Shown piece after piece: positions 1,930-4,511 of a stretch of 64,000 nucleotides of DNA; positions within the stretch are counted from its first letter, which is position 1, and every line of letters starts with the position of its first letter. The stretch is from the NCBI GenBank assembly GCA_020725335.1, contig DYFF01000018.1, forward strand, positions 124,001-188,000, given 5' to 3'. Source of the DNA: Thermodesulfovibrio sp. Its GTDB lineage: Bacteria; Nitrospirota; Thermodesulfovibrionia; Thermodesulfovibrionales; Thermodesulfovibrionaceae. The notes beneath the pieces are model-generated. The model saw only the letters and a program-made list of their open reading frames with translations, was not told the DNA's origin and searched no databases. Made by a program: the position numbers and the translations under genes.

Positions 1930-2741
1930 AACGGTTTATGAAAACTCTCTGTTAATAAGTTTATGCCAAAAAAGCCGACAATCATAAGAAGAAAAGCAAA
2001 AATAGTTAAATAGGCAGCCTTTTTCTTTCTCCAATCTCCCTTCACCCTTAAATAAAAAATCGATAAATAAACTATCCACGTTAAAAAGCTCCATATTTCT
2101 TTTGGATCCCAAAGAAAACCTAATAGAGATAAATACTTAACAAGTCCAACAATTAAGGCAATGCTGTAGATAGGAAAACCCCAGAATATTAAACGATAAT
2201 TTAATTTATCAAGTATTTCAAGGCTTGGGATTATACTTTCAAGTCCTCCAAATTTTTTAGCTTTTACAGCTCGTTCTTGAATCAGGTAGAGTATACTAAA
2301 AATAAAAGCTAAACTGAATAAAGCTATACCAAAAACTGCCATGAGGGCATGAATATCAATCCAAAAGTTTTTTAGTTCAGCTTTTAAGACTGGAATATTT
2401 CTTGGGAAAAAAGCACTTACAAACATAAAAGAAAAGCTTAATATTATATTAAAATTAATTATTTTTACTTTGTTTGTAAAATATATAAAAAAAGATATTA
2501 ACAGAATACTCCAGGCAAAGAAGGAATTTGCTTCATGCATTGAAAAAATTGGTGCTTGACCAGCTTTTATATATCTTAACAATAAATAAATAGAGTGTAG
2601 AACAAAACCAGATAAGCTAAGGATTAAAACCGCTTTATCTAAATCTTGCTTTTTCCTTATAATACCAGCAAGACTGAGGAGAAATCCTGCAAAATATAGG
2701 GTGAGTGCAAGTTCAAAAAAAATAGTGCCCATTAAAAACAA
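1926..2741 (-). CDS. CcsA/HemX-like cytochrome c assembly membrane protein
   Basis: Polytopic membrane protein of 271 residues with about eight hydrophobic segments. Near residues 210-225 it carries LWDPKEIWSFLTW, a form of the tryptophan-rich WWD haem-handling motif of the CcsA/CcmC/HemX family. Such proteins either deliver haem to cytochrome c synthase or, as HemX next to hemA, influence glutamyl-tRNA reductase level. Position directly before hemA favours the HemX name; the motif favours CcsA-like. It overlaps its neighbours by 4 and 10 bp. Family is secure, exact role is not. Confidence 0.85.
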   Translation of the reverse strand: MFLMGTIFFELALTLYFAGFLLSLAGIIRKKQDLDKAVLILSLSGFVLHSIYLLLRYIKAGQAPIFSMHEANSFFAWSILLISFFIYFTNKVKIINFNIILSFSFMFVSAFFPRNIPVLKAELKNFWIDIHALMAVFGIALFSLAFIFSILYLIQERAVKAKKFGGLESIIPSLEILDKLNYRLIFWGFPIYSIALIVGLVKYLSLLGFLWDPKEIWSFLTWIVYLSIFYLRVKGDWRKKKAAYLTIFAFLLMIVGFFGINLLTESFHKPL

Positions 2742-3415
2742 CCAAGTTCACATTTTTTTATTTTTATTTTCAATTCATTTGCCATTCTTCCCACTTCAAT
2801 ATAAGGAATTCTTAATTCTTCAGCAATTTTTCTTGCTTCTGTGCATGTAATCTTTCCATCATTACTTCTCTCTTTTAATAATTTTTCAATAAGTTTTTTC
2901 TGTTGAATTTTTTCAATCTCAGACATAATTTCCTCCATTACATAATCCTTTTGTATTACTATATCTGCCAAATCAAGGATAGCCTTACCAGAGGGCTTCA
3001 TTTGTTCTCCCTTATTACCCTTAAAGAATATTATAACATCAGCATGCATAAATCTTACCAGAGAATTACCTTCCAAAATAACTATCATTCTATTTTTATC
3101 ATCCTCAGAAAAATTCGATAGAATTTCTTCTCTTAATTTTTGAGAAACTTTTGCTAATTCTTGTTCTGAAGCCCTTATCCAATAAACATAATCAGCGCCT
3201 GCCTTTTTCATCCTTGCAGTATCCTTACCAGATTCTTCTATAATTTCAGGGTCTGTAATAATATCCACTAATCCCGAAGTTTTAGAGTACTTGACTGAAA
3301 CGATAAAGATTTGATTGTTAATACTTTTAATGAATTGAATAAAATTCTCTATGAAAGTGGTTTTACCTATCCCACTTTTAGCAGAACCAACTCCAAGTAT
3401 CAAAGGAAAAATCAC
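2732..3415 (-). CDS. MobB-like P-loop GTPase with C-terminal extension
   Basis: A 227-residue protein with a P-loop at residues 10-20 (GSAKSGIGKTT). KYSKTSGLV and GKDTARMKKAGAD follow, which resemble the GKD-x-R-xx-x-AGA region of MobB, the molybdopterin guanine dinucleotide synthesis GTPase. Residues about 180-227 form a short extra domain that looks like a small helical or winged-helix module ending in two cysteines. The start is GTG at 3415, with an in-frame stop 27 bp upstream and no clear Shine-Dalgarno. It is first in the leftward haem operon. Whether it serves Mo/W cofactor or another metallocofactor cannot be told from sequence. Confidence 0.6.
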   Translation of the reverse strand: MIFPLILGVGSAKSGIGKTTFIENFIQFIKSINNQIFIVSVKYSKTSGLVDIITDPEIIEESGKDTARMKKAGADYVYWIRASEQELAKVSQKLREEILSNFSEDDKNRMIVILEGNSLVRFMHADVIIFFKGNKGEQMKPSGKAILDLADIVIQKDYVMEEIMSEIEKIQQKKLIEKLLKERSNDGKITCTEARKIAEELRIPYIEVGRMANELKIKIKKCELGCF

Positions 3416-3704
3416 GATGTTATAGTCTTTAATATTTTCTTAATTTTTTCAAGTTTATTAATTTCTATAAAAATGCAGAAGCTAATATCTCCAAAATAAA
3501 TTAGAGATGAAAAAAGAAATTAACGGTAAAATAATCCTTCTAAAAATTCCCTTCTTGCTCTTGGTGTGTAGTGTAAAATTTTATCTCGAGATATTAGGAT
3601 TAGGTTTAAATATCACACATTATTAAGACTCTCTATATAAAGCTTTTCTTATTTAAGGTAATTATTAATTTTCATTTAGATTTTTGATGAGTCAATTCGG
3701 AGTC

Positions 3705-3734
3705 TTGACATTATCTATAAAATCAAAATAAACT
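3705..3734 (+). promoter_or_regulatory. Candidate promoter for a short leader or small RNA
   Basis: A perfect TTGACA at 3705-3710 is followed after 18 nt by TAAACT (3729-3734, 4 of 6 to TATAAT). The predicted start falls at about 3741, exactly where the first hairpin begins. Weak -10, so moderate confidence only. Confidence 0.4.
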
Positions 3735-3740
3735 ATTATA

Positions 3741-3818
3741 GTTCAGCTGAAGCTGAACGGAATATTAACCATGAAGGAGTAAGGGATGAACCCTATTATA
3801 ACTTCATGGTTTTTTTTT
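3741..3818 (+). ncRNA. Candidate small RNA or aborted leader (two hairpins, terminator)
   Basis: About 78 nt bounded by a candidate promoter and a terminator. Hairpin 1 is an 8 bp perfect stem with a 2-nt spacer (GTTCAGCT/AGCTGAAC, 3741-3758). Hairpin 2 is a 10 bp perfect stem (3767-3776 with 3802-3811) with a small inner GGG/CCC stem, followed by a T run to 3818. No open frame of note lies inside. It may be a stand-alone small RNA or a terminated leader; no match to a known RNA family is claimed. Confidence 0.4.
3767..3818 (+). terminator. Rho-independent terminator
   Basis: Perfect 10 bp stem (AACCATGAAG at 3767-3776, CTTCATGGTT at 3802-3811) followed directly by seven more T residues. No protein gene lies upstream on this strand, so it must end a short transcript or act on a leader. 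Confidence 0.75.
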
Positions 3819-3835
3819 GCTCCTTACATGCCCCT

Positions 3836-3862
3836 CACCCCTTAGTAGCCCCCTAAGGGGTG
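3836..3862. repeat. Perfect 10 bp inverted repeat, C-rich loop
   Basis: CACCCCTTAG (3836-3845) and CTAAGGGGTG (3853-3862) with a 7-nt loop TAGCCCC. No T run follows, so it is not a classical terminator. It lies in a C-rich patch unlike the AT-rich surroundings. Confidence 0.7.
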
Positions 3863-3878
3863 TCCCTCCCTAAAATAA

Positions 3879-3912
3879 ATAGGAGACCATCCCCTTGGTC
3901 TCCTATATTTTT
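3879..3912 (+). terminator. Terminator-like hairpin just before ubiX
   Basis: An 11 bp perfect stem (3879-3889 with 3896-3906; core AGGAGACCA/TGGTCTCCT) followed by ATTTTT. It ends 23 nt before the ubiX start codon, so upstream transcripts would be stopped and ubiX needs a promoter after it, or this is an attenuator. Confidence 0.65.
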
Positions 3913-3935
3913 GGTAAAAATGTTATCATAAAAAG

Positions 3936-4511
3936 ATGAAAAAGGTAGTATTAGCAATAACTGGAGCTTCAGGGATAATTTATGGTTTAAAATTACTTGA
4001 TAATCTGTTAAAAAATTTTAAAGTAGAACTTATCCTTACAGATTCCTCTATAAGTGTTATGCAATATGAAAATAATTTATCCATATCAAAGGTGGATGAT
4101 TTCAAAAAAATCTATGACTTTGATAACTTAATTGTTTATTCAGAAAAGGATATTTCTGCTCCTTTAGCAAGTGGCTCTCACATAACCGAAGGTATGTTTA
4201 TAGTGCCCTGTTCAATGAAAACTCTTTCGGCTATTGCAAATGGTTATGCTGATAATCTCGTAACAAGAACTGCAGATGTAATGATTAAAGAGAAAAGAAA
4301 ACTTATTTTATCTCCAAGAGAGATGCCTTTCAGCGCTATCCATCTTGAGAATATGCTAAAACTCTCAAGAATTGGTGCGGTTATAGCTCCTCCAATACCA
4401 GCTTTCTATAGTAACCCTAAAACACTTGATGATTTGGTCAACTTTGTTGTAGGAAAGTTATTAGATTGCATGGGTATAGAAAACGATATCTACAGGAGAT
4501 GGAATGGCTAA
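3936..4511 (+). CDS. ubiX: Flavin prenyltransferase UbiX
   Basis: Makes prenylated FMN, the cofactor of UbiD-family decarboxylases. The 191-residue length is typical. The FMN-binding TGASG loop is at residues 9-13, PCSMKT at 91-96 and PREMPFS at 127-133, all family signatures. No Shine-Dalgarno precedes the ATG; an extended -10 (TGTTATCAT, 3921-3929) sits 6 nt before it, so the mRNA may be leaderless. It overlaps hemH by 8 bp. No ubiD lies in the window; a UbiD-like enzyme in quinone synthesis elsewhere is the likely partner. Confidence 0.93.
   Translation: MKKVVLAITGASGIIYGLKLLDNLLKNFKVELILTDSSISVMQYENNLSISKVDDFKKIYDFDNLIVYSEKDISAPLASGSHITEGMFIVPCSMKTLSAIANGYADNLVTRTADVMIKEKRKLILSPREMPFSAIHLENMLKLSRIGAVIAPPIPAFYSNPKTLDDLVNFVVGKLLDCMGIENDIYRRWNG

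Follow-up and report, generated by a model that had tools for sequence, protein, structure and literature searches.

A putative small RNA gene of Thermodesulfovibrio behind an attenuator common to metal-uptake leaders

What are four perfect hairpins, a promoter candidate and two T runs doing in a gap with no plus-strand gene upstream? The locus that raises this question lies in a 64,000-nucleotide window of a Thermodesulfovibrio sp. genome (G000; coordinates without a contig label are window positions), and protein similarity likewise places the organism in Thermodesulfovibrio. The original prediction offered two answers, a stand-alone small RNA or a leader that attenuates ubiX-hemH-queF, and considered a MITE-like origin. 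All the elements on which it was built are present, and the upstream side is indeed free of plus-strand genes: hemA, a ccsB-like gene and an unnamed ORF are all on the minus strand, while ubiX-hemH-queF follow downstream on the plus strand. The minus-strand ORF adjoining the RNA (2732–3415) matches no NCBIfam model at 1e-10 and shows, by eye, a P-loop motif, GKTTF.

Read along the plus strand, the block opens with a sigma-70 type promoter (3705–3734), in which TTGACA at 3705 stands 18 nt before TAAACT; with 10 of 12 consensus matches it is the joint-best promoter-like site in 2 kb. The predicted 5′ end of the RNA is hairpin 1 (3741–3758; GTTCAGC-TGAA-GCTGAAC), an 8-bp perfect inverted repeat (3741–3748/3751–3758) with an NGAA loop and a C-G closing pair. 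Hairpin 2 (3767–3811) has a terminator stem CCATGAAG..CTTCATGG, a 10-bp perfect repeat (3767–3776/3802–3811) enclosing an inner hairpin GGG-AUGAA-CCC (3783–3793), and a run of nine Ts (3810–3818) provides the U-tract at which a short form of ~78 nt is predicted to end. Beyond it lie a conserved C-rich segment (GCUCCUUACAUGCCCCUCACCCC, 3819–3841), hairpin 3 (CACCCCTTAG-TAGCCCC-CTAAGGGGTG, 3836–3862, a 10-bp repeat 3836–3845/3853–3862 with a C-rich loop) and a second C-rich, single-stranded and anti-Shine-Dalgarno-like segment (UCCCUCCCU, 3863–3871). The terminator scan marks hairpin 4 (3879–3912; 11-bp repeat 3879–3889/3896–3906), with ATTTTT directly 3′ of it, as the end of a predicted long form of ~170 nt. 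The C-rich patch noticed earlier appears as a GC peak of 0.48 at 3800–3899 (~0.22–0.30 nearby), and the fold of 3690–3940 reaches −76.7 kcal/mol, compared with −48.9 ± 4.9 in shuffles (z −5.66, 0/200). Could the block be a mobile repeat? A genome search for further copies found it in single copy, which excludes a MITE-like origin.

Stand-alone gene or leader

Is the block maintained as an RNA? Nucleotide searches find it in 11 of 16 Thermodesulfovibrio genomes, the window copy and ten congeners; G001 and G002, both ~99% complete, are without it. The alignment of these 11 copies gives a consensus structure made of hairpin 1, hairpin 2 with its inner hairpin, and hairpin 3, in which nine pairs change on both sides yet remain paired. 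Such two-sided changes occupy 23 cells, where shuffles give 7.9 and slid-partner controls no more than 5. Compensatory changes affect five of the seven pairs of hairpin 1, convert AU to GC in the hairpin 2 stem of five of the 11 sequences, and occur once in hairpin 3, whose pairs are kept in all copies save for two gap cells. TTGACA and the −10-like box stand at the same place in 11 of 11 copies, the U-rich tract after hairpin 2 is retained in every one and the second C-rich segment is C-rich throughout; the C-rich blocks of the 3′ half are nearly invariant, and this half is among the most conserved parts of the RNA. A covariance model recovers all 11 copies at 123–157 bits and has no comparable match elsewhere in the order; weak matches opposite hairpin 2's strand were rejected as palindrome artefacts. 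The stems are conserved in relatives, with covarying pairs. Rfam scans of the region and of related elements gave no match at the gathering threshold, the weak best matches (suhB, Qrr and TEG147) lying below the cut-off; the suhB/mmgR sRNA family (RF00519) scored 23.4 bits (E 0.018) against a gathering score of 41 bits.

Does this RNA belong to the gene downstream? In eight genomes ubiX follows the block directly. In G009, G012 and G014 the block has a divergent aminotransferase-like gene (ilvE by eye) on one side and mfd on the other, with ubiX at a distant locus. Because the downstream gene differs in this way, the block is better read as a stand-alone RNA gene than as a ubiX leader. A GGAG..CTCC terminator hairpin equivalent to hairpin 4 is found in the eight ubiX-linked copies and is absent from the three mfd-linked ones; the block has its own promoter and terminator independently of its neighbours, save that these three copies lack the 3′ terminator. 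In both settings a −10-like box is found just before the start codon, with no ribosome binding site (TTATCATAA at 3918–3940 beside the ubiX start codon, from the alignment of eight genomes), so ubiX and mfd are probably transcribed from their own promoters, and their start codons, a few bases past the conserved boxes, are probable leaderless starts. Attenuation of ubiX-hemH-queF does not survive the presence of mfd in three genomes, the intervening hairpin 4 terminator and the −10-like box at the ubiX start codon. The other half of the original prediction fares well: conservation with covariation, a conserved promoter of its own and two unrelated downstream genes make it very probable that the block is a conserved stand-alone RNA gene.

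The probable attenuator of the 5′ half

If ubiX is not its object, is there any attenuation at this locus? The idea finds support for the RNA's own 3′ half, by way of a terminator family common to metal-uptake leaders. Weak covariance-model matches at other loci yielded a search pattern, CCATGAAG-N(4–34)-TTCATGG(C/T)TTT, which occurs in 30 of the 176 genomes of the order (reversed-pattern control: 0) and, outside the order, in only five of the sampled genomes of the phylum. In its members a sigma-70 promoter is followed by (A)NGAA-loop hairpins and these by a terminator AAGCCAUGAAGG..CUUCAUGGCUUUUUU; a sigma-70-like promoter lies just upstream of 30 of 33 leaders, compared with 271 of 926 control positions (29%). 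Hairpin 1 and hairpin 2 with its U-tract form one member, and we hold it highly probable that the 5′ half of the RNA belongs to this family of metal-uptake attenuators. A transcription-factor palindrome was considered for CCATGAAG/CTTCATGG and rejected; the spacing between the two is so variable that a fixed DNA site is unlikely.

Which genes follow these leaders? They encode TonB, TonB-dependent receptors, a periplasmic binding protein and CpaM-like methyltransferases, the ECF Ni/Co transporter components CbiM, NikL and CbiQ and, by eye, ExbB/ExbD-like proteins; one leader's operon includes a NikL-type Ni/Co subunit. The window genome has three members: the sRNA, a tonB-type leader (C3:49013–49097; by eye its gene looks TonB-like) and a third leader, at C18:195184–195232 (L226 4185–4232), that precedes a gene for an OprB-like porin. 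This last leader and its relatives L228, L231 and L233 are compact, the terminator hairpin coming directly after a TTGACC..TATAAT promoter, without hairpin 1 and with a UGAA/AGAA-loop hairpin nested inside; the OprB-like porin gene follows and, in L231 and L233, genes of the CbiM and NikL types come next in the operon that the leader heads. Among tonB leaders, in the genus-level set, the 5′ hairpin covaries (five of eight pairs). The first gene downstream of a leader repeatedly codes for a class I methyltransferase that shows weak similarity to CpaM and has the motif W(M/I)EHNxYH in its N-terminal part (L236 3868–4587 on the minus strand, L206 3314–4270 and similar cases); this gene adjoins TonB and a TonB-dependent receptor, and a metallophore or corrinoid link is possible.

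How might such a terminator be overcome? Small leader hairpins have NGAA or ANGAA loops closed by C-G in 76 of 131 cases, against 90 of 1299 in control stretches, an enrichment that is partly a consequence of the search pattern itself; the loops seen are UGAA, AGAA, AUGAA, ACGAA, AAGAA and UCGAA. One such hairpin, AAGCC-AUGAA-GGCUU, uses the 5′ arm of the terminator and forms when the leader is folded up to a point short of the 3′ arm. Its core, GCC-AUGAA-GGC, overlaps the terminator arm, and this mini-hairpin could act as an antiterminator. In the hairpin scan of the 33 leaders it has 3–7 bp in most and at least 4 pairs in 21, extending to CAAGGCC-AUGAA-GGUCUUG in G037. The window copy's own candidate (CC-AUGAA-GG, 3769–3777, overlapping the 5′ arm of hairpin 2) is weak, with 2 bp. 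As for the antiterminator first suggested, in which CTCCTT pairs with AAGGAG, it is present in the window and absent from the other ten copies, and is given up here. In L210 (G037), L206 (G025), L211 (G026) and L213 (G087) the stretch from terminator to start codon has further ANGAA-loop hairpins close to the ribosome binding site; their 5′ arms, CCUCC or CUUCC, could pair instead with the Shine-Dalgarno sequence GGAGG, which suggests a second, translational layer of switching.

The C-rich 3′ half and hydrogenase

What would the 3′ half be for? A segment of it, CCAUACAUG(C/U)CCC, is antisense to the start region of a [NiFe]-hydrogenase small-subunit gene, with which window positions 3825–3835 of the RNA can pair, the predicted partners being CCAUACAUG in the sRNA and CAUGUAUGG in the hydrogenase start region. 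A scan of the window genome with the C-rich segment places this gene 8th of 1833 start regions, and a VhuG-like hydrogenase subunit 13th. In seven of ten genomes the hydrogenase start ranks among the best 20 of 1831 (ranks 1, 3, 5, 6, 8 and 19 in other genomes), with the G000 gene set serving as background for those other genomes in place of their own; shuffled sRNAs do as well at frequencies of 0 to 22 per 1000 in these seven. The predicted pairing energy is −31.6 kcal/mol in G012 and −30.8 in G009, and in G009 it includes 13 contiguous Watson-Crick pairs, CCAUACAUGCCCC, over the ribosome binding site and start codon of the hydrogenase gene, a 13-nt run matched by no G000 start region.

How specific is this complementarity? 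Genes unrelated to nickel (dsrM, nuoN, porB and a phsA-like gene) score equally well or better, and the top-scoring functions include sulfate respiration, pyruvate synthase and NADH dehydrogenase; some of the top matches depend on wrongly called starts, and a C-rich RNA pairs with any G-rich Shine-Dalgarno sequence. Three genomes (G008, G013 and G005) have a different sRNA segment as well as a different hydrogenase sequence, and the two pair weakly; G002, where the RNA is missing, still has this start sequence on its hydrogenase gene, so the RNA cannot be all that maintains it; and two other [NiFe]-hydrogenase-like operons of the window genome show no strong pairing. For these last three reasons the case for hydrogenase as the target of the C-rich segment is suggestive, not strong. 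Being complementary to the start of a nickel-enzyme gene, the C-rich half may make the RNA a nickel-saving regulator. A tblastn search with the E. coli protein found no Hfq in G000; a CsrA homologue is present (C1:69502–69645).

Proposed switching, other readings and known systems

How could the two halves work together? Transcription is predicted to start at the base of hairpin 1 (~3741) and by default would stop at hairpin 2 and its U-tract, leaving the ~78-nt stub. A regulator or ligand binding the (A)NGAA loops of hairpin 1, the inner hairpin and the mini-hairpin would prevent the terminator, as in ANTAR-type antitermination, and read-through would give the ~170-nt form with the C-rich 3′ half. 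Since the same attenuator stands before TonB, TonB-dependent receptors and Ni/Co ECF transporters, read-through is expected under scarcity of the metal concerned, most likely nickel. CCAUACAUGYCCC and neighbouring C-rich stretches of the long RNA would then base-pair with ribosome binding sites, in the first place the one belonging to the [NiFe]-hydrogenase small-subunit gene, and less nickel-using protein would be made. Judged from sequence, there is about an even chance that the block is an independent gene for a trans-acting sRNA with an attenuator of its own, yielding a metal-sparing long form when nickel is scarce; that this long form acts on hydrogenase under nickel scarcity is a more tentative proposal, predicted from complementarity. 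NikR was detected in none of the 16 congeners, although the positive control was. Two known riboswitch classes were also considered as sensors. The cobalamin riboswitch (RF00174) was rejected, with no match in the region and none at the gathering threshold in 11 leader loci, the family being found elsewhere in the genus; the NiCo riboswitch is not among the matches for the window region at E values up to 10, nor among those for three related elements at E values up to 0.5.

Is nickel the right metal? A conserved sRNA with the shared attenuator might respond to cobalt, cobalamin, iron or haem and act on respiratory genes generally, and although we think this unlikely, there is evidence for it: TonB, the receptors and CbiM/CbiQ serve cobalt, cobalamin and iron too, and dsrM, porB, nuoN and the PhsA-like reductase are among the predicted targets. 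However, cobalamin riboswitches are already present in the genus at loci separate from the attenuator leaders, the NikL-type subunit in one leader's operon points to Ni/Co, and several genomes have hydrogenase as their most specific match. The functional product might instead be the short form, hairpins 1 and 2 serving, for example, as a decoy that titrates a GAA-loop-binding factor away from the uptake leaders, with the C-rich half secondary. Both hairpins are common to the leaders, the U-tract is conserved in all copies, and Rli55 acts through antiterminator sequestration (PMC8079631); but a decoy needs no C-rich half, yet hairpin 3 pairs in 100% of cells and the C-rich blocks hardly vary, and we regard this reading as improbable.

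Two further possibilities carry even less weight. The constant strand and short distance in 11 of 11 genomes, together with the missing hairpin 4 in the mfd copies, would suit a cis-acting leader of ubiX or mfd, but ubiX and mfd have nothing to do with each other, elsewhere the attenuators stand before metal-uptake genes, termination at hairpin 4 would come ahead of ubiX, and the downstream starts have −10-like boxes of their own and no Shine-Dalgarno sequence to sequester, which leaves a cis-acting role quite improbable. Rut sites are typically C-rich, G-poor single strands, and the C-rich stretch has this composition in a genome where Hfq was not found; a Rho loading site, or a structural 3′ part with no base-pairing role, would nonetheless require neither a hairpin 3 conserved in sequence nor 13 nt exactly complementary to a start-codon region, and is very improbable.

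The preferred reading remains an sRNA that spares nickel behind a metal-uptake attenuator. Neither the sRNA nor the attenuator is described in Rfam or in the literature covered, largely that outside subscription journals, so that two hitherto undescribed RNA families are proposed, a genus-level sRNA and an order-level attenuator before Ni/Co and TonB uptake genes. Should nickel be what the switch senses, whether directly or via a protein, RNA control of nickel uptake would be joined to a nickel-sparing sRNA where NikR is not found. In a bolder version, which we consider doubtful, the leaders with tandem (A)NGAA loops would form a novel class of attenuator that senses metal and replaces NikR in Thermodesulfovibrionales, either as a nickel-responsive riboswitch or as the target of a putative RNA-binding nickel regulator, and the window RNA would be a nickel-sparing sRNA that has this switch and shuts down [NiFe] hydrogenase under nickel scarcity.

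Which known systems come near? The target RNAs of ANTAR proteins consist of a pair of small hairpins whose loops are conserved, and the second of these shares sequence with the 5′ arm of an intrinsic terminator that lies directly ahead of a gene (PMC3369931); most leaders similarly combine a 5′ hairpin with an AGCC-AUGAA-GGCU mini-hairpin on the terminator arm that would exclude the terminator (2 bp in the window copy). However, ANTAR hexaloops have A at position 1 and G at position 4, whereas here NGAA/ANGAA loops with G at position 2 or 3 are closed by C-G; identity with ANTAR targets was rejected on this loop rule, and the ANTAR domain (PF03861) was found in 0 of 16 congeners, control genomes being equally silent. 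NiCo (czcD) and cobalamin riboswitches likewise place Ni/Co-related genes under RNA control, the former located before efflux genes (PMC9294342), but the anatomy here is different and no Rfam match reaches the gathering threshold. With RyhB and IsrR (PMC9410917) the proposed logic is common, metal scarcity bringing on an sRNA that blocks the start sites of metal-using enzymes, and IsrR also has C-rich pairing stretches; these work with iron and Fur, and as far as Rfam shows they are not homologous to the window RNA. NikS/Nrr of Helicobacter and s-SodF of Streptomyces are nickel-responsive sRNAs (PMC5385501, PMC9294342) and, as proposed here, are linked to nickel status and nickel-dependent functions; they depend on the DNA-binding NikR or Nur, whereas here, where NikR was not found, control by attenuation is proposed. 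Rli55/EutX and AspocR are sRNAs made in short or long forms set by a cobalamin riboswitch (PMC8079631). As in Rli55/EutX, a 5′ attenuator on a stand-alone RNA, read here from its sequence, would set short versus long transcript and tie an sRNA to a cofactor and to the control of cofactor-using genes; unlike them, the window RNA has no cobalamin aptamer in the Rfam scan and no ANTAR-type loops, and it is proposed to act by base pairing in trans, not by protein sequestration, AspocR being an antisense RNA. None of these systems has the anatomy of the window RNA; the closest in logic are Rli55/AspocR together with the nickel-responsive sRNAs of Helicobacter and Streptomyces.
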